Of a stretch of 27,547 bases of DNA, positions 895-27,213 are shown one piece after another. This DNA comes from a virus. Location of the stretch: the IMG/VR virus record IMGVR_UViG_3300022200_009232, positions 1-27,547 of that record; one strand, written 5' to 3'. The translations under genes and the position numbers were made by a program. The notes beneath the pieces were generated by a model that saw nothing but the letters and a program-made list of their open reading frames with translations, did no database searches and was not told where the DNA came from. Every line of letters begins with the position of its first letter. Position 1 is the first letter of the stretch.

Positions 895-3800
895 CTAGAC
901 CTTCTCAGTTGATAGGTTTCCATCATCGTCAACAACGAAACGATACTTAACTCCGTTTTTAGAAGTTATGATATTTCTATCTTCAGAAAGTTCCTTGATT
1001 GCCTCAATTAGGAGAGGAATTACTTTATAATAATCAACCGCAAGATACCCATTATCTCTTTCAGTAACAGCTTCTGGCAGAATTTCTTTTATTTCTTGTG
1101 CAATAACACCAACATCATGACCAGACTTATTGGAATTTTGATTCCAATCGAATGTGTTACCACTAATTGATATTACCTTTGCCAAAGGATCATCAATTGG
1201 AGTGATATTATCCTTTAATCTTTCATCAGAAGTATAGAATGCAGTAATATCACCAGTTACATTGAGATCTCCGGTAATTAAAACACCAGTATCTGTTGCC
1301 GTAATTGCATCTCTGGCAACTGTTGTTTGATCGAAGACATAAACGACACCGGCAGCACTAGTACCTCCAATCTCATCATTGAGAGCAGAAGCAATAACAG
1401 ACTTACCATCTGCACTACATGCCACTGCGTATCCAAATTTATCAGCAAGATTAGTAGCATAAGAACCGGTTATAATACCTACTTTATTAAAGTTATTTCC
1501 CTGACGATTAAAAACATGAACAATGCCAGTAGTAAAAGTAGATGAATATTCATCATTGGGAGCACCAACAAAAATAGTCTTACCATCGGCACTACATGCA
1601 ACTGACCATCCAAAATAATCATGATTATCAGCATATTCAGTTCCTGCTGTTAGAATACCTACTTCATTAAAATCATTTCCAACACGATCAAAGACATGAA
1701 CAGTGCCTTTAGTAGGATCACCGGTCCCAGACTCATAATAAGCACTACCAATAATAGTCTTACCATCGGCACTGATTGCTACTTCGCGTCCAAAGTCATA
1801 GCGCACGGTATCGTAAGATGCTGTTAGAATACCTACTTGATTAAAATCATTTCCAACACGATCAAAGACATAAATTGCACCTACATCAGTTACTGTTACG
1901 CCACTTTCATCACCATACGCACCAACAGCAATAGTCTTACCATCGGCACTGGTTGCTACAGAATATCCAAAATAATCAAAAACAAATGCACCACTTGATA
2001 CTGTTAGAATACCTACTTCATTAAAATCATTTCCAACACGATCAAAGACATAAACTACACCTCCGCCATCAACACTATCAACACCCTTCTCATCCAGAAG
2101 AGCACCAACAACAATAGTCTTACCATCGGCACTGGTTGCTACTGACGATCCAAAATTATCACTATTTTGAGAAGCATAAGAACCGGTTAAGATACCGACT
2201 TCATTAAAATCATTTCCAACACGATCAAAGACATAAACAAGTCCACTATTCGACTCCGATCCTGGTAATTCACTATATTGGTTGCCAACAACTATGGTTT
2301 TACCATCGGCACTACATGCAATTTCTTGTCCAAAATAATCGCTGCTACTGGTAGCATAAGAACCAGTAAAGAAACCTACTTGACTATAAGTATTTCCTTC
2401 ACGATCAAAGACATAAACTGCACCTACATTTGATAATGAATTAGTATCATGATCGGGAGCACCAACGATAATGGTCTTACCATCAGCACTGGTTGCTACT
2501 GTGTGTCCAAATTCATCGTTAGAGTTAGGATTATCAAGTTCTATAGCACCTACTTCAATATAAGTTGATCCAATACCTACAAGATTATAAGATCCATTTG
2601 ATGTTTCACTATGACTTGCATAATCGGAATAGGAAGAGAAAATACTTCTATCGGCATTATCTGCAGTTCCTTTAATATCACCCGTTACTGTTAAATTAGA
2701 TTCTATAATTATATTTTTTTCATCTATAGTCCTTAAAAGTGATTTTGTATTTACATTTTGATCGAAAACATAAACAAGACCTTGTTCACTATTAATCTCA
2801 TCATTGTAAGCACCAACGATAATGGTCTTACCATCGGCACTGGTTGCTACAGAATGTCCAAAATAATCACCAGTATTAGAAGCATAAGATCCGGTGAGAA
2901 TTCCTACTTCATTAAAGTTGTTTCCCTGACGATTAAAAACATAAACGAGACCAGAACCATTGCCAGAACCAGGATACTCATCACTTTGAGCTCCTACAAT
3001 AATCGTCTTACCATCGGCACTACATGCCACAGAGATCCCAAATTGATCATCATCATCGGCATAAAAACCTGTTAAAATTCCTACTTGATTAAAGTCATTT
3101 TCAACACGATCATAAACATAAACAGCACCAGGTTGATTAGCAGAAATAGAACTTCTACCAACAAAAATAGTTTTGCCATCAGCACTAGTTGCTACTTCAT
3201 TTCCAAAAAAGTAGTAATTATTACTGTCAAATGCTGTTAAAATTCCTACTTCATTAAAATCATCTCCAACACGATCAAAGACATAAACTGCGCCTGAAGA
3301 TGTATGTCCCGAAAGATCGTCATGACCACCAGCACCAACAACAATAGTCTTACCATCAACACTACATGCAACATCCTGTCCAAAAGAATCACCTGCACCT
3401 TGATCAGATGCTGTTAAAATTGCTACTTCATTAAAGTCATTTCCAACACGATCATAAACATAAACAAGACCATGACCAGTAGTGCCAGAAGTTTCATCAC
3501 CATAAGCACCAACAATAATAGTATTACCATCGGCACTGGTTGCTACTGACCATCCAAAGTAATCAAAAGATTCGGTGGCATAAGAACCAGTTAAAATTGC
3601 TACTTCATTAAAGTCATTTCCAACACGATCATAAACATAAACAAGACCATAACCAGTAGTGCCAGAAGTTTCATCATCAAAAGCACCAACAACAATGGTC
3701 TTACCATCGGCACTGGTTGCTACTGCTTGTCCAAAATTATCATAATTATCGGTAGAATAAGAACCTGTCAAGACACCTACTTGACTATAGGTATTTCCTT

Positions 3801-6800
3801 CACGATCAAAGACATAAACTGCGCCTGAATCTGTTGCATTACCATCACCAAAGCGATCTCCAACAACAATAGTCTTGCCATCAGCACTGGTTGCTACTGA
3901 CCATCCAAAACTATCTGCAGAAGATGAATTTGCAGTAAGTATTCCTACTTCATTGTAAGAAGTGTTTGCAATACCTACAATACCGTATGCATAATTTGAT
4001 GTTTCACTATGACTTGCATAATCAGAATAATGAGAGAAAACACTTCTATCCGTTGCTGTTGGAGTTACTGTCGCAACACCACTTGAAGTAGAAAGTAATA
4101 CATTAAATCCTCCACTAAAATTAATTGTTGCTGCAGCTCCAACCGAAGTTCCATTTGATTGAAGTTCAACGCCAGTGCCTACACCAATAACACCAGTCAG
4201 TAAAGATCCATCACCCTCAAAACTAGCAGATTGCAATTTTCCAGTACTTGAATCATAAGTTAAGTTGGCATTAGTTTTTGGTGGAAGAATTCCATTAGAT
4301 GCGGTTACAAAAACTATATTACACTCGGCATCAGTACTTTCTTCGGTAACATTAATATTAGTTGCTGTTATATCACCAACAATATCACTACTATTAACTG
4401 TGCCAATAAATCCACCAGTTGCTGTTATAATTCCGGTGACGGCAATACCTCCATTAGATGGAGTAATGGTCACACCAGTGCCTACAGATGTGATACCAGA
4501 TATGAATGTATCTCCACTTGATGAAATCGTTACAGCCGCACCAACTTTTATAGTTTCACTGACTGATGCAATTCCAGTAACTTGTAAATTACCACGAACA
4601 TCTAATTTTGCTTCGGCACTTGTAGTGCCTATTCCAACAGAACCGGTTTGTCCAATAGCAATAACAGCACTATCATTTCTTATACCAAAAGTAATAGGAA
4701 CATTAGTTTGTGCTACAGTATTAGTTGCATAAGTATCAACAATAATTGTATTTCCAACAATATTTGAAATCTTCGTGCCAACTGTATGGAATCCAGATTT
4801 TACTTCTTGTCCCAATACAATACCAGATCCAGATATTGTGATTCCAGTAATTTCATTGGTACCCAAACCACCAACAGGAGCAGCAAGATCTCCAGTATTT
4901 GTATTTACAACTGGTATAAATTCGTTCCGTGATCCTATTTGAAGTCTATCAACAGGAGTTCTTGTTGCAATACCAACTTTAACGGGGTCAATAGTATCCA
5001 CGATATCAGGATCATTACATAATATCAAATCACTTCTGATATGAACACCACCAGCAACAATTAAAGCACCATCATTATTACCAGTGGTTGGTTCAGTACT
5101 ATTAATTTGCAGTTCGCTATCAGTAACAATTGTATTAGAACCACCTTGAGCATTAATAATTAAATTTCCAGAAGTTGTATCTATTGTATTAGAAAGATTT
5201 CCACCAAGACCACCAATCTTAATATTAGAAATAGTTGATGCAGAAGAAACATTTAATGTATCGGTTTCTACATGACCCGTTACATCAATACCATTTTCCG
5301 TTACTTCTAATTTTTCAACTCCATTATAGTATAGATTTACATAAGTATTATAATTATCTCCACTATTAACATGTGTCACTCTCATGGCAGTGCTTATGCC
5401 AAGATTATTATCAAAAGAAACGAAGTCTAATGTCTTACCACCACTAGAATCTAACCCAACATATGTTTTGGTGAGTGTAGAATCATGGTAAATTCGTAGG
5501 TCGGCAGTTGTCCCTACACGAAATTCTGCATTATCATAAGCATATAAAGAGTTTTCACTCACATCAAAGTAAATATCACGACCAGCAGTATTTCCATCAA
5601 ATATTACATCTCCATGAAACTCTGATGTGCTGTGATCAACATATAATCTACCATCTATACGAAAACCACTGATATCTGTATATGCTTTTCTACTATTATT
5701 ATAATAAAGATCTATGCCAGCATCATCGTTACAAATAATACTATTTTCTCCACTTCTTGCCTGAATATAAATGTTTGAATTAATATTTGACCCAGCATTT
5801 CTAATATATAAATGTCCAGTCTTATTATCAATATATCCAGTAGTGCCATTATGATATATTTCTAAATCAGAGTCAGTGCCTGCAGCAAACTTGGCATTAT
5901 CATCAAGTATTAAACTATAAGCACTCTTGTCCCAGTGAAGATCATAGTTATTATCACCTTTAAATAAAACATCACCGACAACATCTAAATTAACTGTCGT
6001 AGAATCTCTCTTTGTCCTTGGATTTACTGTGCCAATACCAACATCACCAGTGCTAGTAACTACAAAGACATCATCTCCCTCGTAGGTAGTTTCTGGTATG
6101 GTGGCATCATTTGCAACAGAAGTTATATACCTGCCAGTAGCTAAAAGAGTGTTATTAAAGTATATTCTATACCCATTACCAGTAAAAGAACTCCATTGAG
6201 TTCCTTTTGTTTCGTAATTACTATTTCTAACCGTTAGTGCTGTTCCGGCAGAAGGCACATCATATACAAGAGTTCCAAATATATCCTGCAGTCCAAATGG
6301 AGAAGCTGCCGTTCTCAATTGAACTAAATCTCCTGCACTATAATTATCACCTATAGCACTATCTAAAGTTAATTTCTTTGTTGTATATCTTTTTCCATCT
6401 ACTCCAACTTGAAACTTCTGTGCCGGATCATTAGTACCAATACCAATAAACTCATTATAAGGATTGAAATTTAATTCATTATCACCCTGAACCAATCCAG
6501 TAGTGCCATGAAACTGAATATTACCAATTGTTCCACCAGCACCAGTAATAATAGATTCCAAACGAACCCAATCTATTGTCCCAGGATTTCCTGCTCCCTT
6601 CGCAAGAATTTGCCCGTCAGTTCCTGGATCACCATCACTATCATAGATAGTTGCTCCAACTTTAATGCTACCACTTACATCAATATCTCCTGTAACATCT
6701 AAAGTATGTGCAGGATCACTACTATTAATACCTAATCGTGTATTAGACTTATCCCAATAAACACTAGCACCATTAAATTCCCCATTATCATTAAATATTA

Positions 6801-7425
6801 ATTCTTTATTTTCAGAAAAGAATTGTGGAGAAACAGTTATGTCTGCTTTAACTCCAGTCTCAATAATCGAAGATAAAGAATCTACGGTTAATCCAGTGGT
6901 TACTCCATCCTCATAAATTTCATCACTTGCATTTTGAGCAAACGATCCCTCAACATTAGTGACAGTAACATATCCAACTGTTGTTGTAGAATATTTTACA
7001 AAACCAGTAACATTATTGTTACCCTGTGTAATACCTAAACCAACAGAAAAACTATGATTGCCACTTAAAGTTAATGTTGTTTCTTTAAATGAATCTGATG
7101 TTGCAGTTATAGCAGCACCAATAAAATTGAGTTGAGTTATACTACTAATATTACCAACAAGTTTAGTAGATTCATCATAGACAGTAATAGATCCTGGAAT
7201 GATTCCACCCTCAACAGGAATCCAATATCTTTCTCCAGGATATCCTTCAACGGAAACTATTTGATATCTTGTACCAGCAGGTGGAGTGTCTTGAAATGTC
7301 CCGGAAAGAGGATCACCTAAATTTGGTTCAGTTTCATTAAGTCCAAGATAACGGTAGCGATCCGTAGAAATTGCTACTTTGGATTGTTCTTTTCTTTTTA
7401 CTCTTCCGCTTAAATATTTTGCCAT
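895..7425 (-). CDS. Giant tail fibre with two FG-GAP propellers and S74 chaperone
   Basis: This 2176-residue protein is probably a distal tail fibre or adhesin. Residues 1 to about 1100 are fibre-like beta repeats, with motifs such as VGIGTTSAEAKLDVRGN and LEIYHNGTTGYIDN. Residues about 1156-1557 and 1623-2034 are two blocks, each of seven repeats with the core FG-SVATSADGKTIVVG, read as two seven-bladed FG-GAP (integrin-alpha-like) propellers. A 20-residue linker (YSDYASHSETSN) precedes both, indicating module duplication. Residues about 2063-2176 match the S74 intramolecular chaperone, with TSDERLKDNI at 2065-2074. In this family the domain helps the trimer fold and cuts itself off just before the Ser, here S2066. 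The gene starts two bases after the upstream stop and ends the tail operon. Confidence 0.88.
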   Translation of the reverse strand: MAKYLSGRVKRKEQSKVAISTDRYRYLGLNETEPNLGDPLSGTFQDTPPAGTRYQIVSVEGYPGERYWIPVEGGIIPGSITVYDESTKLVGNISSITQLNFIGAAITATSDSFKETTLTLSGNHSFSVGLGITQGNNNVTGFVKYSTTTVGYVTVTNVEGSFAQNASDEIYEDGVTTGLTVDSLSSIIETGVKADITVSPQFFSENKELIFNDNGEFNGASVYWDKSNTRLGINSSDPAHTLDVTGDIDVSGSIKVGATIYDSDGDPGTDGQILAKGAGNPGTIDWVRLESIITGAGGTIGNIQFHGTTGLVQGDNELNFNPYNEFIGIGTNDPAQKFQVGVDGKRYTTKKLTLDSAIGDNYSAGDLVQLRTAASPFGLQDIFGTLVYDVPSAGTALTVRNSNYETKGTQWSSFTGNGYRIYFNNTLLATGRYITSVANDATIPETTYEGDDVFVVTSTGDVGIGTVNPRTKRDSTTVNLDVVGDVLFKGDNNYDLHWDKSAYSLILDDNAKFAAGTDSDLEIYHNGTTGYIDNKTGHLYIRNAGSNINSNIYIQARSGENSIICNDDAGIDLYYNNSRKAYTDISGFRIDGRLYVDHSTSEFHGDVIFDGNTAGRDIYFDVSENSLYAYDNAEFRVGTTADLRIYHDSTLTKTYVGLDSSGGKTLDFVSFDNNLGISTAMRVTHVNSGDNYNTYVNLYYNGVEKLEVTENGIDVTGHVETDTLNVSSASTISNIKIGGLGGNLSNTIDTTSGNLIINAQGGSNTIVTDSELQINSTEPTTGNNDGALIVAGGVHIRSDLILCNDPDIVDTIDPVKVGIATRTPVDRLQIGSRNEFIPVVNTNTGDLAAPVGGLGTNEITGITISGSGIVLGQEVKSGFHTVGTKISNIVGNTIIVDTYATNTVAQTNVPITFGIRNDSAVIAIGQTGSVGIGTTSAEAKLDVRGNLQVTGIASVSETIKVGAAVTISSSGDTFISGITSVGTGVTITPSNGGIAVTGIITATGGFIGTVNSSDIVGDITATNINVTEESTDAECNIVFVTASNGILPPKTNANLTYDSSTGKLQSASFEGDGSLLTGVIGVGTGVELQSNGTSVGAAATINFSGGFNVLLSTSSGVATVTPTATDRSVFSHYSDYASHSETSNYAYGIVGIANTSYNEVGILTANSSSADSFGWSVATSADGKTIVVGDRFGDGNATDSGAVYVFDREGNTYSQVGVLTGSYSTDNYDNFGQAVATSADGKTIVVGAFDDETSGTTGYGLVYVYDRVGNDFNEVAILTGSYATESFDYFGWSVATSADGNTIIVGAYGDETSGTTGHGLVYVYDRVGNDFNEVAILTASDQGAGDSFGQDVACSVDGKTIVVGAGGHDDLSGHTSSGAVYVFDRVGDDFNEVGILTAFDSNNYYFFGNEVATSADGKTIFVGRSSISANQPGAVYVYDRVENDFNQVGILTGFYADDDDQFGISVACSADGKTIIVGAQSDEYPGSGNGSGLVYVFNRQGNNFNEVGILTGSYASNTGDYFGHSVATSADGKTIIVGAYNDEINSEQGLVYVFDQNVNTKSLLRTIDEKNIIIESNLTVTGDIKGTADNADRSIFSSYSDYASHSETSNGSYNLVGIGSTYIEVGAIELDNPNSNDEFGHTVATSADGKTIIVGAPDHDTNSLSNVGAVYVFDREGNTYSQVGFFTGSYATSSSDYFGQEIACSADGKTIVVGNQYSELPGSESNSGLVYVFDRVGNDFNEVGILTGSYASQNSDNFGSSVATSADGKTIVVGALLDEKGVDSVDGGGVVYVFDRVGNDFNEVGILTVSSGAFVFDYFGYSVATSADGKTIAVGAYGDESGVTVTDVGAIYVFDRVGNDFNQVGILTASYDTVRYDFGREVAISADGKTIIGSAYYESGTGDPTKGTVHVFDRVGNDFNEVGILTAGTEYADNHDYFGWSVACSADGKTIFVGAPNDEYSSTFTTGIVHVFNRQGNNFNKVGIITGSYATNLADKFGYAVACSADGKSVIASALNDEIGGTSAAGVVYVFDQTTVARDAITATDTGVLITGDLNVTGDITAFYTSDERLKDNITPIDDPLAKVISISGNTFDWNQNSNKSGHDVGVIAQEIKEILPEAVTERDNGYLAVDYYKVIPLLIEAIKELSEDRNIITSKNGVKYRFVVDDDGNLSTEKV
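1325..2560 (-). repeat. Second set of seven FG-GAP blade repeats in the fibre gene
   Basis: Seven tandem coding repeats of about 175-182 bases encode the blades of the C-terminal propeller. Their SADG cores lie near 1406, 1585, 1760, 1943, 2130, 2307 and 2488. A block of about 50 bases encoding VGNDFNEVGILT is nearly identical at about 1652, 1825, 2004 and 2186. This degree of DNA identity could allow recombination between blades. Confidence 0.85.
2755..3960 (-). repeat. First set of seven FG-GAP blade repeats in the fibre gene
   Basis: Seven tandem repeats encode the N-terminal propeller. Their cores lie near 2835, 3016, 3176, 3357, 3531, 3710 and 3880; the one at 3357 reads SVDG in place of SADG. 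Each blade carries an acidic, variable loop (for example AFDDETSG, AYGDETSG), which resembles the calcium-binding loops of FG-GAP domains. Confidence 0.85.
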
Positions 7426-16550: not shown

Positions 16551-18320
16551 TTACACTCCCAATCCAAGAGAAGATGCAGTGTAGTATGAAACATAAAAAT
16601 TATCATTATCCTCTGCATCAAGTGCAATTATCGAATCTCCACCAGAGGGTGTTGAATTTACTTTAGAAGCAGATAAATTAGTGGCAGCACTTATCGGAGG
16701 CAACATTGTAATCGATGGAGACCTATTCATAGATCTCATTGACATGTTTGAAGTATTTTTCTTCACAGGATTCAAAGATTTATTTGCCATTGAATCTCGT
16801 GGTCCTCCAATGGCACCATATAATTTATTATATAAGTTGGGATCAAGCGCTTTTAATGTTTCTTTTTTAAAGTACTTGGAAAGCACTTCTATAGATTCTT
16901 CAAATTTTTCATTCGCTTCTTTAAATATATTATTATTATATTCTTGTTTTCTCAATGAGAGAAACATTTTCTCAAATAATTCTCCACCATTACTAATAAT
17001 ATCAGATAAAAATCCCGAAAATCTTGCTGTTTCTTTTTTAGGGACAACAGCCTCTCCAGGAGTAGCAAGTATTGGCACAATGTCCTTATTAATATTGGGT
17101 CCAGGAACAATACCACCTCTATTCATTTTTAAAGGATCTTCCTGTTTTTCTCCAACAATTGCATCGTAAATTTTACCACCAACAAAGTCACCAAGTAAAC
17201 CCCCAGCAAATGTTCCAACACCAGGAATTGGAATTAATGTTCCTAAAGCACTACCAAGCAACATACCAACCGACTTTGCTGCTGCCCTACCTATTGGCTC
17301 TCCAAGAGCAAGAGACACGGCAAAATCAATTAGTGCTCCAAATACAGGTACTCTTTTAAATACTGGTCTCAAAAATTTCATGAGACCTTTTGCACCAAGT
17401 GCTTTTACTACCTTTTTACCAGCTAACTTTGATAATACTTCTGCTTTTTGAACTGCCTTTGCTACTGGATTTTTAGTTCTCTTATATACATCTACTCTCT
17501 CATGAAGTAGTCCACCAGAACCAGGTTTTGCTCTGGTAATTCTTTCCATCTCAACATTAACACCTCTTCTACCACCGGCAGCATTTCTAATTAAACCACC
17601 TCTCCTTATAGCATCACCAGCACCAGCACCAGCACCACGTCTACCAATACCAATAAGTCTCAGTGCTCCACGGATAAGTTTATATAATCGATAAATTTTT
17701 AATACAACATTAGTTAAAAGAAAACCGCCAATAACAGCAAGAATTGGTTTCCAATGTTTCCCAATAAAAGTAAATATCCCCGCTATTTTTTCAGCATTAC
17801 CTGGTTTTGTTAACCAATCAATCGCCTTATTAACTACAAATCCAGTAATAATGGCACCAAAAAAGTCAAGTATTTTTTGAAAAAATCCTTTTACAGGAGT
17901 AGTAACTTTATCAACTTGATTTTTAACAAAACCACCAATTTTTTTTACACTTTCTACACCTGCTTCTGCCCTACTCTTTTTTTCCTTATCAGATGTAATT
18001 TTTATTTTTTGTATATCTTCTTTCTCTTTTGCAATCCTATAAGCAAAATCAGTTGCTAACTGATTTTGTATTTCTATAAGAATATTGTTTGTTTCTACTA
18101 ATGTTTGTTCAATTGGCGTGCTTTCTTCTTTTCTTAAATAACTTGGATCAACATAAGACTTACTTGCCCCTATTTGCATTCCTTTAGGAATTTTGATAGT
18201 AGTCGATTTTCCAATAGATTTAAAGGCACCACGAAAAACTGAAGAAGAAATCATTTTCTTCCCCAACTTTGGTTTTTTATCTAAAGTAGGTGCCGTAAAA
18301 CTTTGACTACTAAATACCAC
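16551..18320 (-). CDS. Tape-measure-like tail protein, 589 residues
   Basis: The protein is basic at the N-terminus. It has hydrophobic, membrane-like segments at about 147-170, 178-205 and 325-385, the last a glycine-zipper region. It then has the motif MNRGGIVPGPNINKDIVPIL followed by TPGEAVVPKK (about 399-428), which is typical of tape-measure proteins of tailed phages. These set tube length and enter the host membrane with the DNA. In T4 the equivalent role is held by gp29, though this protein is not obviously similar to it. The start is GTG at 18320, overlapping the gp51-like frame by 11 bases. The next in-frame ATG (residue 23) is an alternative. Confidence 0.6.
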   Translation of the reverse strand: MVFSSQSFTAPTLDKKPKLGKKMISSSVFRGAFKSIGKSTTIKIPKGMQIGASKSYVDPSYLRKEESTPIEQTLVETNNILIEIQNQLATDFAYRIAKEKEDIQKIKITSDKEKKSRAEAGVESVKKIGGFVKNQVDKVTTPVKGFFQKILDFFGAIITGFVVNKAIDWLTKPGNAEKIAGIFTFIGKHWKPILAVIGGFLLTNVVLKIYRLYKLIRGALRLIGIGRRGAGAGAGDAIRRGGLIRNAAGGRRGVNVEMERITRAKPGSGGLLHERVDVYKRTKNPVAKAVQKAEVLSKLAGKKVVKALGAKGLMKFLRPVFKRVPVFGALIDFAVSLALGEPIGRAAAKSVGMLLGSALGTLIPIPGVGTFAGGLLGDFVGGKIYDAIVGEKQEDPLKMNRGGIVPGPNINKDIVPILATPGEAVVPKKETARFSGFLSDIISNGGELFEKMFLSLRKQEYNNNIFKEANEKFEESIEVLSKYFKKETLKALDPNLYNKLYGAIGGPRDSMANKSLNPVKKNTSNMSMRSMNRSPSITMLPPISAATNLSASKVNSTPSGGDSIIALDAEDNDNFYVSYYTASSLGLGV

Positions 18321-18497
18321 TCTGTTTTTGCTGTTTTAAATTTTCTTCCTCAATATATTGTTGCAAAAGAGAAACATATATTTCTCTTTCCCAAGGTATC
18401 ATATTTTCTAGTTCCGTCAATGAATATTTATGGTGCTGAATCAAGGCAAAGTTTGTTTTGTAATAATTTTCCAAACTCTCATGAGCCAGCGCTAACT
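18310..18497 (-). CDS. 51: gp51-like extension, read only by -1 frameshift from gp26
   Basis: Directly after gp26, the -1 frame is open for 62 codons after the slippery site and ends TAG at 312-310 of the 18300 block. It encodes QLALAHESLENYYKTNFALI, then HHKYSLTELENMIPWERE and a Gln/Glu-rich helix. The pattern of a short helical protein with W-E-R-E resembles the small gp51-type hub-assembly or tail-chaperone proteins found after gp26 in cyanophages. The frame has no ATG until MIPWERE, past the middle of the conserved part. It is therefore best read as the C-terminal part of a 301-residue gp26-gp51 fusion (18310-19214). A TTG start near 18474 is the alternative. Confidence 0.6.
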
Positions 18498-19214
18498 GAA
18501 AAAACTTGCTAACCCTTCCAATACAACTTCTGACTCCACACCTGTCTTTGGATTCTTCACATTAATTGTATGTGATAATTTTGGCATCGTGTTAAAGAAT
18601 TCTTCAATTTTCTTAAATTGTTTGGTATTCATTTGCTCGATGAAATCATTCAATTCTTTCTTACTACAATCAGAAGCATCCCAAGATTCTTCATCAGTAA
18701 ATACTTGACCAATGCAAGATGCTATCACTTGAATAGACTTATCAACTTGTTCATTTTTATTATCAACTTCAAAATTACTTTCAACAAATTGATTTAAAGA
18801 TGGATATTTCATTTTAACCGAAAGATTATCATCCAATTTAATAATATTACTATGATTAGGATTCTTTTGAACCTTAATTAAATCAATATCAATTTCAACT
18901 TGTAATTGTGTTTCTCCATCATCTGGACATGTTACACTTACTTCTACAGATTCTCCTACGGATTTTGCACGAACATTTAAAAACAAATATTCAATATCAA
19001 AAGTTGATAACTGATCTACTTTAATTCCTCTTGTAATAATACAATCTGATATAACAGTTTTAATTGCATTTGAAATTTGTTTAAGATCTTCACTCTCCAG
19101 TGCCATGATAAGAATTTTTTCTTCTTTTACAAGAAATGGACGATATTTAATTAATTTTCCATTTGAAGGCAATTCCAACTCATATGTCGGTGTCGAAATC
19201 TTGGGTAAAGGCAT
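18492..19214 (-). CDS. 26: Baseplate hub protein gp26
   Basis: The 240-residue protein begins MPLPKISTPTYELELPSNGK and continues IKYRPFLVKEEKILIMALES. This is the recognisable N-terminus of the T4 base plate protein family (gp26). In T4 the protein is needed to build the hub. The C-terminal third is acidic and helical, ending LASFFS. The last codons contain the slippery heptamer TTTTTTC, so some ribosomes may shift into the gp51-like frame and make a longer form. A late-type box AATAAATA lies 27 bases before the start. The hub role comes from the family; whether it acts as a structural protein or an assembly chaperone is open, and the frameshift favours a chaperone. Confidence 0.82.
   Translation of the reverse strand: MPLPKISTPTYELELPSNGKLIKYRPFLVKEEKILIMALESEDLKQISNAIKTVISDCIITRGIKVDQLSTFDIEYLFLNVRAKSVGESVEVSVTCPDDGETQLQVEIDIDLIKVQKNPNHSNIIKLDDNLSVKMKYPSLNQFVESNFEVDNKNEQVDKSIQVIASCIGQVFTDEESWDASDCSKKELNDFIEQMNTKQFKKIEEFFNTMPKLSHTINVKNPKTGVESEVVLEGLASFFS
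18498..18504 (-). promoter_or_regulatory. Slippery heptamer T TTT TTC for -1 ribosomal frameshifting
   Basis: The minus strand reads T TTT TTC in the gp26 frame, the canonical X XXY YYZ form, followed by AGT and TAG. After a one-base backward slip the next codon is CAG, the first codon of the open gp51-like frame. A short GC-rich palindrome (AGCGCT) lies just downstream; no strong stem or pseudoknot is obvious by eye. Confidence 0.65.
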
Positions 19215-19240: not shown

Positions 19241-19248
19241 TATTTATT
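19241..19248 (-). promoter_or_regulatory. Possible late promoter AATAAATA for gp26
   Basis: The minus strand has AATAAATA overlapping the stop of the tube-like gene. Transcription would begin near 19235, giving a leader of about 20 bases before the gp26 ATG. It matches the T4 late box at seven of eight positions. Confidence 0.45.
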
Positions 19249-20002
19249 ACCCCACGCCAGGAGGAAGACCTACTTGATCATCCCCATCAATGTTCAATCC
19301 TGTTTTATTAGTAGGATAATCATGAAAAGGACCTTTATTCCATCCTCTATATTGCTCAACAATATACCTATCATAAGCAAAAGAAACTGTAACTCTTAAA
19401 ACTTCTGCACTTCCATAAGAAACTGGAATAGAAGTAATTGCTTTAGGAAAAGCATGAAAAAATCTATAGGATATAATTGGTCTCTCTCTTTCGTTTGAAT
19501 CTTTTTCACCCTTTGTTATATACAGTCCATCCAATTTATACCCATCAATGGGATCTAAAGGATAATTGAATCTTTTATAATATCCATCATGTGCTACCGA
19601 AACTTGACCACCTTGCTTATTCACTGGATAATTATTTTCACCGGCAACATAATCTATCCAACCCTCAAAAAATTTCAAAACTCGATAATCCCCATCAAGA
19701 TAAAAAGTAAAATCACTATCGGTATATAATCTCGTATGAGCATATTGCTCATTAATACCATGAAAATTATCTTTTACCTCTGCTGTGGCAAGAGAACTAG
19801 TGGGAAGTGTTGCCTCAGAACACATCAATCCAAGATTATTGCTCAACCAATCCACCTTTAATCCATATTTTTTAAGAAATTTCATAAGACCACTTCCTTC
19901 CGAAAGTCCAGTCATATGAACTTGATAATAATTCGATAATGATACATTGGTAATTTGACTTCTTTCGATAGCACCTACTTTTAAGTCATTTATCCTTGGC
20001 AT
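19247..20002 (-). CDS. Tail-tube-like baseplate protein, possibly gp54
   Basis: The 251-residue protein contains a segment FTFYLDGDYRVLKFFEGWID (about 98-117), together with an N-terminal strand-loop pattern typical of the T4 gp19 tube fold, shared by gp19, gp48 and gp54. In T4, gp54 sits on gp48 at the top of the baseplate and starts tube polymerisation. The closeness of gp48 on the other strand fits this. It is the first gene of the leftward tail unit, with a late-type box CTAAATA at 20043-20037. AAGG lies about 12 bases before the ATG. It could instead be another tube-fold baseplate protein; the gp54 name is tentative. Confidence 0.55.
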   Translation of the reverse strand: MPRINDLKVGAIERSQITNVSLSNYYQVHMTGLSEGSGLMKFLKKYGLKVDWLSNNLGLMCSEATLPTSSLATAEVKDNFHGINEQYAHTRLYTDSDFTFYLDGDYRVLKFFEGWIDYVAGENNYPVNKQGGQVSVAHDGYYKRFNYPLDPIDGYKLDGLYITKGEKDSNERERPIISYRFFHAFPKAITSIPVSYGSAEVLRVTVSFAYDRYIVEQYRGWNKGPFHDYPTNKTGLNIDGDDQVGLPPGVG

Positions 20003-26620: not shown

Positions 26621-26628
26621 TATTTAGA
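26621..26628 (-). promoter_or_regulatory. Late-type promoter TCTAAATA for the 83-residue gene
   Basis: The minus strand carries TCTAAATA overlapping the stop of the HNH gene. It would give a leader of about 17 bases before ATG 26598. The CTAAATA core is the same as in the pair at 20004-20043. Confidence 0.5.
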
Positions 26629-27190
26629 CCCACTCTAAAGATCTTTTAGAGAGTTTTTTTATGTGTTCAGAAAATTTATTTAGAGATAAATCCATTTTCA
26701 TAGTATTACATATGTGGCAACAAGATACCGAATTGTTAGAAGTATACCCAACACTGTTATCTTGTCTGTCTATCCCCCAATGTGAGAATGGAATACCAAC
26801 ATTACTTTCTCTTAAAATTGGAGGTTCTCCACAATAATAACAGGATTTTGTAATAATGTCAAAATGTTCTTTTTTTGTTAAAGACCACTCCTTTCCTCTG
26901 TGTTTAGCAGATCTTTTACAATCACCATAAATTTTATTGTGGTAAGATTCTATTGTTTTTTGTTTTCTTCCAGTTTCCTTAGCTCTATCAGATCTAAGAC
27001 AACCACAACTTTTACTTGTTCCTCTTGTTAGATAATCACCTCTAACTAATTTTTCTACTCCACATTCACATTTACATAGAAAACATCTAACAGGACGATT
27101 ACTTGTTCCAAAATATTGAATTGTGGGGGAAGAACTTATAACTTCCCACCTATTAAATTTTTGTCCCTCATTAAGTGTTATTGCTTTCAT
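26624..27190 (-). CDS. Free-standing HNH endonuclease, likely homing
   Basis: From ATG 27190 the protein has 188 residues. An N-terminal DNA-binding-like part holds Cys clusters (FLCKCECGVEKL, KSCGCLRSDRA). The C-terminal HNH domain has CYYCGEPP, then HWGIDRQDNSVGYTSNNS and CCHICNTMK, with paired CxxC zinc ligands. This is the architecture of phage homing nucleases inserted between genes. A GTG at 27205 would add five residues, but it lies at the predicted late start site, so ATG 27190 is preferred. The gene has a perfect TATAAATA and a hairpin overlapping its start codon. It lies directly downstream of thyX, and thymidylate synthase genes are frequent homing targets in T-even phages. Confidence 0.82.
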   Translation of the reverse strand: MKAITLNEGQKFNRWEVISSSPTIQYFGTSNRPVRCFLCKCECGVEKLVRGDYLTRGTSKSCGCLRSDRAKETGRKQKTIESYHNKIYGDCKRSAKHRGKEWSLTKKEHFDIITKSCYYCGEPPILRESNVGIPFSHWGIDRQDNSVGYTSNNSVSCCHICNTMKMDLSLNKFSEHIKKLSKRSLEWV

Positions 27191-27213
27191 AGATATAACA
27201 TACACTATATCTA
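27190..27213 (-). promoter_or_regulatory. Start-codon hairpin of the HNH gene
   Basis: On the minus strand TAGATATA (27213-27206) and TATATCTA (27197-27190) form an 8-bp stem with an 8-base loop. The last paired base is the A of the ATG. A transcript starting at the late promoter would lack nearly all of the 5' arm; read-through transcripts would carry the whole hairpin. Confidence 0.6.

Follow-up and report, generated by a model that had tools for sequence, protein, structure and literature searches.

We analyzed a 27,547-nucleotide (nt) stretch of viral DNA, positions 1 to 27,547 of the IMG/VR virus record IMGVR_UViG_3300022200_009232 (hereafter, the window), focusing on its gp26 gene and on the short open frame that follows it, annotated as gp51 in relatives. 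The two are very likely the short and the long form of a single tail assembly chaperone, obtained through a -1 ribosomal frameshift and comparable to the G/GT pair of lambda. In other words, a single gene of this marine T4-like virus very probably yields both chaperone forms, by ribosomal slippage. We infer the occurrence and the rate of frameshifting, the binding partners of the products, and their role in tail assembly as follows. Most ribosomes would end at the gp26 TAG and release a short form of 240 amino acids (aa), and a minority would slip one base back while decoding U UUU UUC. In most of the tested relatives, the slip would be helped by a site about 10 nt upstream that binds the anti-Shine-Dalgarno (anti-SD) sequence and by a hairpin about 6 nt downstream. 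The slipped ribosomes would read 62 further codons, giving a long form of 301 aa. By analogy with lambda G/GT, the tape measure protein would be covered by short copies in large number and by a few long ones, the C-terminal part of the long form would recruit the tail tube protein, and both forms would depart before the virion is completed.

The features of this locus all lie on the minus strand. The gp26 gene (18492-19214) was assigned on the basis of PF12322 (T4_baseplate, gp26/gp51 family), matched with E 6e-76 and 255.4 bits against a curated cut-off of 24.5, and of phrog_150 (E 2.5e-81). Its 3' end reads GCA AGT TTT TTC AGT TAG, with a single sense codon (AGT) between the slippery heptamer T TTT TTC (18504-18498) and the TAG. 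The -1 frame extension (18310-18498) comprises 62 codons plus a stop at 18312-18310, and matched phrog_634, “baseplate hub assembly catalyst”, with E 1.1e-29; it is the only gp51-type match in the record, which covers just 27.5 kb of the virus, so that a separate full-length long gene may lie elsewhere in it. The predicted trans-frame long form spans 18310-19214. Upstream, the -1 frame stays open as far as 18561, without any ATG, GTG, or TTG before the slip site; in its gp51 part, the first ATG lies at 18402, which is codon 33. The last 11 nt of gp51 are shared with the next open reading frame (ORF), which has a GTG start at 18320. An earlier note on this DNA, made from the letters alone, was thus correct on the position of the heptamer, on the frames and their lengths (301 aa for the fusion, 240 for gp26), on the lack of an ATG before the middle of the gp51 frame, and on the overlap with the next gene. 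The window holds 26 copies of TTTTTTC on both strands versus 18.1 expected; since it is not rare there, the heptamer alone proves nothing, and only its conservation can carry the case.

Relatives were collected in overlapping sets. The first set was obtained from viral-contig scans with P0002 and gp26 as queries, taking the best 80 among the matches listed per query and adding two named phages, and comprised 121 distinct junctions passing both queries. A cyanophage-type set of 105 sequences was derived from 119 distinct viral-contig junctions by removing near-copies. Two more scans, for which distant queries were used, gave the distant set (103 loci, 95 distinct junctions), and a single viral scan with the protein of Vibrio D481 confirmed nothing. 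The full set joined all of these and the named phages (240 loci, two of which were too short) and was reduced to 198 non-redundant junctions with less than 90% identity. In the full set, the heptamer was scored as an in-frame T TTT TTZ inside the last 12 gp26 codons.

In the first set, T TTT TTC stands one codon before the stop in 120 out of 121 junctions. The exception is contig L022, where (at about 1480-1510) the end of gp26 runs KQF straight into its last residues and the heptamer is gone, either by a deletion or by an assembly fault; it was later dropped. As read from the sequences, gp51 lies in the -1 frame in 121/121 junctions of the first set and in 95/95 of the distant set. The in-frame heptamer was present in 194/198 junctions of the full set, one codon before the stop in 173 of the 194 (range 0-8). 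The conservation of both the heptamer and the frame offset supports the -1 frameshift put forward in the earlier note. Among the 194 sites, the codon preceding TTT TTZ always ends in T, and the Z base is C in 171, T in 16, A in 5, and G in 2. As A or G at this position makes the second residue Leu instead of Phe, the nucleotide run is kept rather than the Phe-Phe dipeptide. The cyanophage-type set gave the following picture: TTT TTC is fixed (105/105), the codon before it is AGT, TCT, GCT, or AAT, and the flanking codons vary; the other conserved Phe columns show a mixture of TTT and TTC, and the other Phe-Phe dipeptides of the same gp26 genes are encoded as T TTT TTC in just 2/105 cases.

Among the 19 named loci, T TTT TTZ was found in 15 and gp51 in the -1 frame in 18. 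The named phages carrying the site belong to hosts or groups as diverse as Stenotrophomonas, Vibrio, Aeromonas, Desulfovibrio, Pelagibacter, Methylophilales, Rhizobium, Sinorhizobium, Variovorax, Synechococcus, and Prochlorococcus. In the loci L185, L187, L188, and L279 (three of Ackermannviridae type plus Vibrio phage K483), gp51 is still in the -1 frame and the slip site is degenerate or different. Campylobacter phage CP21 had been considered as an exception with a +1 frame, and was rejected as such: it differs by one base from CP220 (L190, 2355-2942), the change breaks an in-frame long form with a gp51-like part, and both CP220 and WX1 carry one in-frame long gene. CP21 is therefore not a frameshift case, and the one-base difference may be a sequencing error or a mutation. 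This isolated loss of an in-frame long form speaks for the possibility that a broken gene or an assembly error split a formerly in-frame gene. Given that the 198 non-redundant junctions, drawn from several phage families, are all split at the same point, and that 194 have the same site, such an origin is hardly credible.

The regions flanking the heptamer were then considered for signals able to stimulate slippage. The Glu codon located eight codons before the gp26 stop is GAG in 87/105 sequences, compared to 669/2418 elsewhere in gp26, and together with its neighbours it gives GGAGG or GAGG in 87/105. Over the 194 relatives, the energy of the anti-SD duplex reaches its minimum at this place, with a mean of -7.28 kcal/mol in the stretch starting 15 nt before the heptamer, and it is -5 or lower in 82% of them versus 30% in a control stretch. 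In the window, the Shine-Dalgarno (SD)-like sequence GGAAGGG (18513-18519), 8 nt 5' of the heptamer, forms a duplex of -6.0 kcal/mol and is a possible stimulator.

On the 3' side, we computed fold z-scores on 60-nt stretches at varied offsets after the heptamer, for 53 of the 105 cyanophage-type sequences. The mean z was -2.28 at 0 nt, -2.6 at +5 nt, and -1.33 at +10 nt, whereas the remaining seven offsets gave values between -0.73 and +0.43. A common stem begins 6 nt after the heptamer, with at least 8 of its 10 pairs formed in 74/105 sequences; among the 31 sequences without it, 20 reach a folding energy of -7 kcal/mol or less over the first 50 nt, in many cases through other stems. The mean minimum free energy (MFE) over the 105 sequences was -12.41, compared to -9.72 (sd 0.17) when codons were reshuffled within columns and to -4.25 (sd 0.25) under gene-wide codon usage. 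The 31 sequences without the common stem also had a lower mean MFE than the control (-8.25 versus -3.61). These two synonymous controls support selection for RNA structure. RNAalifold returned no single consensus structure over all 105 sequences, because the stems differ between clades; inside the main clade the stem pairs vary little, so we relied on the energy controls and not on covariation. The window itself has a possible hairpin (18435-18490), which begins 7 nt 3' of the heptamer. The cassette found in the relatives resembles that of Escherichia coli dnaX, where the heptamer is likewise preceded, at about 10 nt, by an SD-like element and followed, at about 6 nt, by a hairpin; dnaX has an A-run read by Lys tRNA, whereas the window has a U-run read by Phe tRNA.

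The same features bear on the possibility that the frame changes in the mRNA, through slippage of the polymerase on the T run, and not on the ribosome. A run of six T is indeed present in all the 194 canonical sites; such a run, however, is short for transcriptional slippage, which counts against this explanation. Moreover, the fixed phase X XXY YYZ with a free Z fits tandem tRNA slippage, and an upstream anti-SD site with a spaced hairpin are ribosomal stimulators. We consider polymerase slippage extremely improbable.

The comparison with T4 provides a further line of evidence for the short and long chaperone forms. PF12322 matches both T4 gp26 and T4 gp51, and the window gp26 belongs to the same family; in T4 the short and long forms come from two divergently transcribed genes, whereas in the window both would come from one. 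T4 gp51 (249 aa) matches PF12322 over residues 1-201 and phrog_634 over residues 147-246. Judging from these matches, T4 gp51 joins a gp26-like domain and the extension in a single reading frame, and is a natural long form. When gp26 was aligned without its extension, the Phe pair of the slip site fell on residues 199-200 of T4-type gp51; the extensions alone aligned from residue 201, right after F200, and continued for 22 residues until the first gap, of one residue. The predicted junction, which aligns ungapped to T4-type gp51, thus has an in-frame counterpart in T4 gp51.

No in-frame T TTT TTZ was found at the gp26 end in any of 12 T4-type loci (near-copies of T4 included), two of which keep a six-T run, one after G and one out of phase. 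The Campylobacter phages CP220 and WX1, mentioned above, have an in-frame long gene as well. In the phylogenetic tree, T4 gp26 and T4 gp51 are each on one side of a branch with full support (100/100); the tree is unrooted, and long branches meet there. The topology is consistent with one duplication in the T4 lineage, without showing it. A broader scenario, which we regard as evenly balanced between true and false, is that the -1 shift at T TTT TTZ, assisted by an anti-SD site upstream and by a hairpin that turns over downstream, was the ancestral route to two forms in the entire T4-like group and in related phages (Kyanoviridae, Pootjesviridae, Ishigurovirus, Menderavirus, and probably Ackermannviridae with a degenerate site). 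The T4 lineage would have escaped from this route when the gene was duplicated: the short form would have stayed with one copy, and the other would have fixed the long form in a single frame.

The fold of gp26 was also compared to those of solved structures. The AlphaFold model of the window gp26 (18495-19214) has a pLDDT of 88, and its three best VIA-align rows were 3FGX (Z 8.1), HK97 gp13 2OB9 (Z 7.8), and YqbN 3KLU (Z 7.2), with the caution that a VIA-align Z near 8 can also reflect a common arrangement or chance. The matches cover gp26 residues from about 1 to 96, and the next rows dropped to Z 5.4 and 4.2. All three of the top structures are called tail assembly chaperones in the literature (PMC9603447). 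That the three top rows are all chaperones is a stronger point than the Z values themselves, and supports, at the level of the model, a fold match of the N-terminal domain. The fourth row was 5IR0, ORF19 of a PICI-like element of Vibrio cholerae, a satellite protein which, as far as the model indicates, may share the chaperone fold. T4 gp51, searched by sequence against solved structures, gave none with E up to 1, and NCBIfam yielded no relevant family.

A number of points, here and in the next paragraph, weigh against the reading of gp26 and gp51 as a frameshifted chaperone pair, beside the caution on Z values. No experimental frameshift product was found. Four of the 198 junctions (phiA8-29, CRW-SP2, K483, and the viral contig L279) have A CTT TTC or A ATT TTC in place of the canonical heptamer. 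The SD-like site of the window is not unique, as stretches starting at -43 to -33 score from -5.3 to -6.3. The window hairpin reaches -15.8 kcal/mol and is weak by z-score (-1.85 over 73 nt, 0.22 over 61 nt, and -0.91 over 86 nt), and five of the 31 relatives lacking the common stem barely fold (MFE above -4). The RNA structure downstream of the heptamer, named in the earlier note as a check of the frameshift, is stronger in the relatives and weak in the window. Foldseek gave no match with E <0.001 for the gp26 model, with 2OB9 and 3FGX in its top seven at E near 1, and VIA-align listed no chaperone for the model of T4-type gp51. The gene after gp51 is only a candidate tape measure gene. Finally, the earlier note had taken gp26 as an assembly chaperone rather than a hub part. 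The first half of this view was already in print, since T4 gp26 and gp51 are both entered as “hub assembly chaperone” in a review of 2010 (PMC3004832); the second half is opposed by genetic work cited in the same review, which places gp26 in the T4 hub.

Further contrary evidence concerns start codons, and bears on whether gp51 is instead a small protein of its own, translationally coupled to gp26, with ribosomes that finish gp26 starting again at an ATG just a few bases beyond its stop. We scanned the gp51 frame of the 194 relatives from the upstream stop through the eighth codon past the slip. An ATG near the gp51 start was found in 130/194, the very feature that the earlier note held would speak against a fusion; in 60/194 there is no ATG, GTG, or TTG, and in 4/194 only a GTG or TTG. 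A start codon upstream of the slip occurs in 6/194, TAATG or TGATG overlaps lie at the gp26 stop in several distant phages, and the earliest possible start in the gp51 frame of the window is a TTG at 18474, the ninth codon of the extension. Furthermore, databases carry gp51 as a gene of its own, as in P-SSM2. The near-stop ATGs and the TAATG/TGATG overlaps imply that a separate gp51 could also be made. Yet, coupling finds no ATG, GTG, or TTG in the first eight codons of the window and of the 60 relatives mentioned, and the conservation of T TTT TTZ is left unexplained by it. Ahead of the gp51-frame ATG, the mean anti-SD energy does not fall below -1.9 kcal/mol, and it is from the slip site that the SD-like site is correctly spaced. 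In addition, each of the 74 relatives with the common stem has the ATG within the 5' arm of the hairpin, where it contributes to the stem. Restart cannot be the general mechanism and may add a product in some phages; as the sole origin of gp51, we judge it very improbable.

An intermediate possibility is that both routes operate, the long form arising by frameshift and some free gp51 domain by restart where an ATG is present. Indeed, the heptamer and a near-stop ATG coexist in most relatives. The ATG can, however, be explained as a part of the stem and as a Met/Leu at a hydrophobic position (the Leu codons CTG, CTA, or CTC stand in its place in 13/105 sequences), and a second route of this kind is inapplicable to the window, which lacks the ATG. 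We consider it unlikely, albeit less so than coupling alone, and the frameshift as the source of both forms remains the reading we retain.

The layout is reminiscent of the pairs G/GT of lambda and E/E+E' of P2, which likewise consist of a short protein with a low-level -1 extension and are encoded next to the tail tube gene. The gene upstream of gp26 in the window (19247-20002, minus strand) is of the tail tube family (phrog_45 tail tube, E 2e-33; PF23849, E 5e-21). The N-terminal fold resembles that of solved chaperones, and the likeness is drawn from layout and fold; the window differs in its short form, which is 240 aa long and continues beyond the chaperone-like part with further domains.

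Frameshifts of this kind are known, and the T4-like case seems to have been published already. The earlier note knew of no description of this layout in T4-like phages; one apparently exists in Vladimirov et al. 2022, according to the papers citing them. For T4-like phages in which one chaperone gene is short and another is long and fused, the PRFect paper refers to Vladimirov, Gautam and Davidson 2022 (PMC10885494), and the Adele paper refers to them for the poly-T slip sites of the TAC-N genes of T4-like phages (PMC12846349). The latter also reports a chaperone frameshift in Vandenendeviridae and Andersonviridae, which are other phage families and have a GTTTTT motif, different from the T TTT TTZ type of the window. 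In the part of the literature searched, we found no description of a gp26/gp51 frameshift in cyanophages. Sullivan et al. 2010 noted that the gp51 of cyanophages and marine vibriophages lacks the first ~200 residues (PMC3037559). On the reading proposed here, it is short by ~200 residues because it is only the frameshift extension of gp26. As far as we can tell, the new elements are the breadth of conservation, the anatomy of the stimulators, the residue-level match of the junction to T4 gp51, and this explanation of the short cyanophage gp51. Atkins et al. 2016 state that tail chaperone frameshifting is conserved “except T4” (PMC5009743), a generalization that our analysis softens.

As regards annotation, records either give gp51 as a separate gene (P-SSM2) or leave it out, where a single joined coding sequence (CDS) would be right. 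The gp51 CDS is missing from the records of S-WAM1 (L161), S-H9-1 (L189), and S-MbCM6 (L192), and in all three the -1 frame is intact. The junctions collected here also constitute a large natural set for studying the evolution and the loss of frameshift signals.

The gene downstream of gp51 is the GTG-started ORF introduced above (16551-18320, minus strand, 589 aa), which lies at the place of the tape measure gene. Its best PHROG match was phrog_12490, labelled endolysin (E 6.4e-30), and the tape measure family phrog_934 was matched with E 0.0012 only. A profile comparison between eight downstream proteins and five partial T4-type gp29 gave no significant link (probability 0.3 on a per cent scale, E 0.2). 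The phiM12 protein at the same place is annotated as having “similarity to phage tape measure proteins”.

Elsewhere in the window, ARAGORN called two minus-strand tRNA-like genes (204-276 and 296-383), both tRNA-Ile with anticodon TAT; the second, 88 nt long, has its anticodon at another position and could be a wrong call. An ORF of 2176 aa (895-7425) contains many VATSADGKTIVVGA-type repeats and a C-terminal SDERLKDNI segment, and has the appearance of a tail fibre. The ORFs at 26624-27205 and 2-157 carry CxxC and HH motifs, and we take them to have the look of HNH homing endonucleases.

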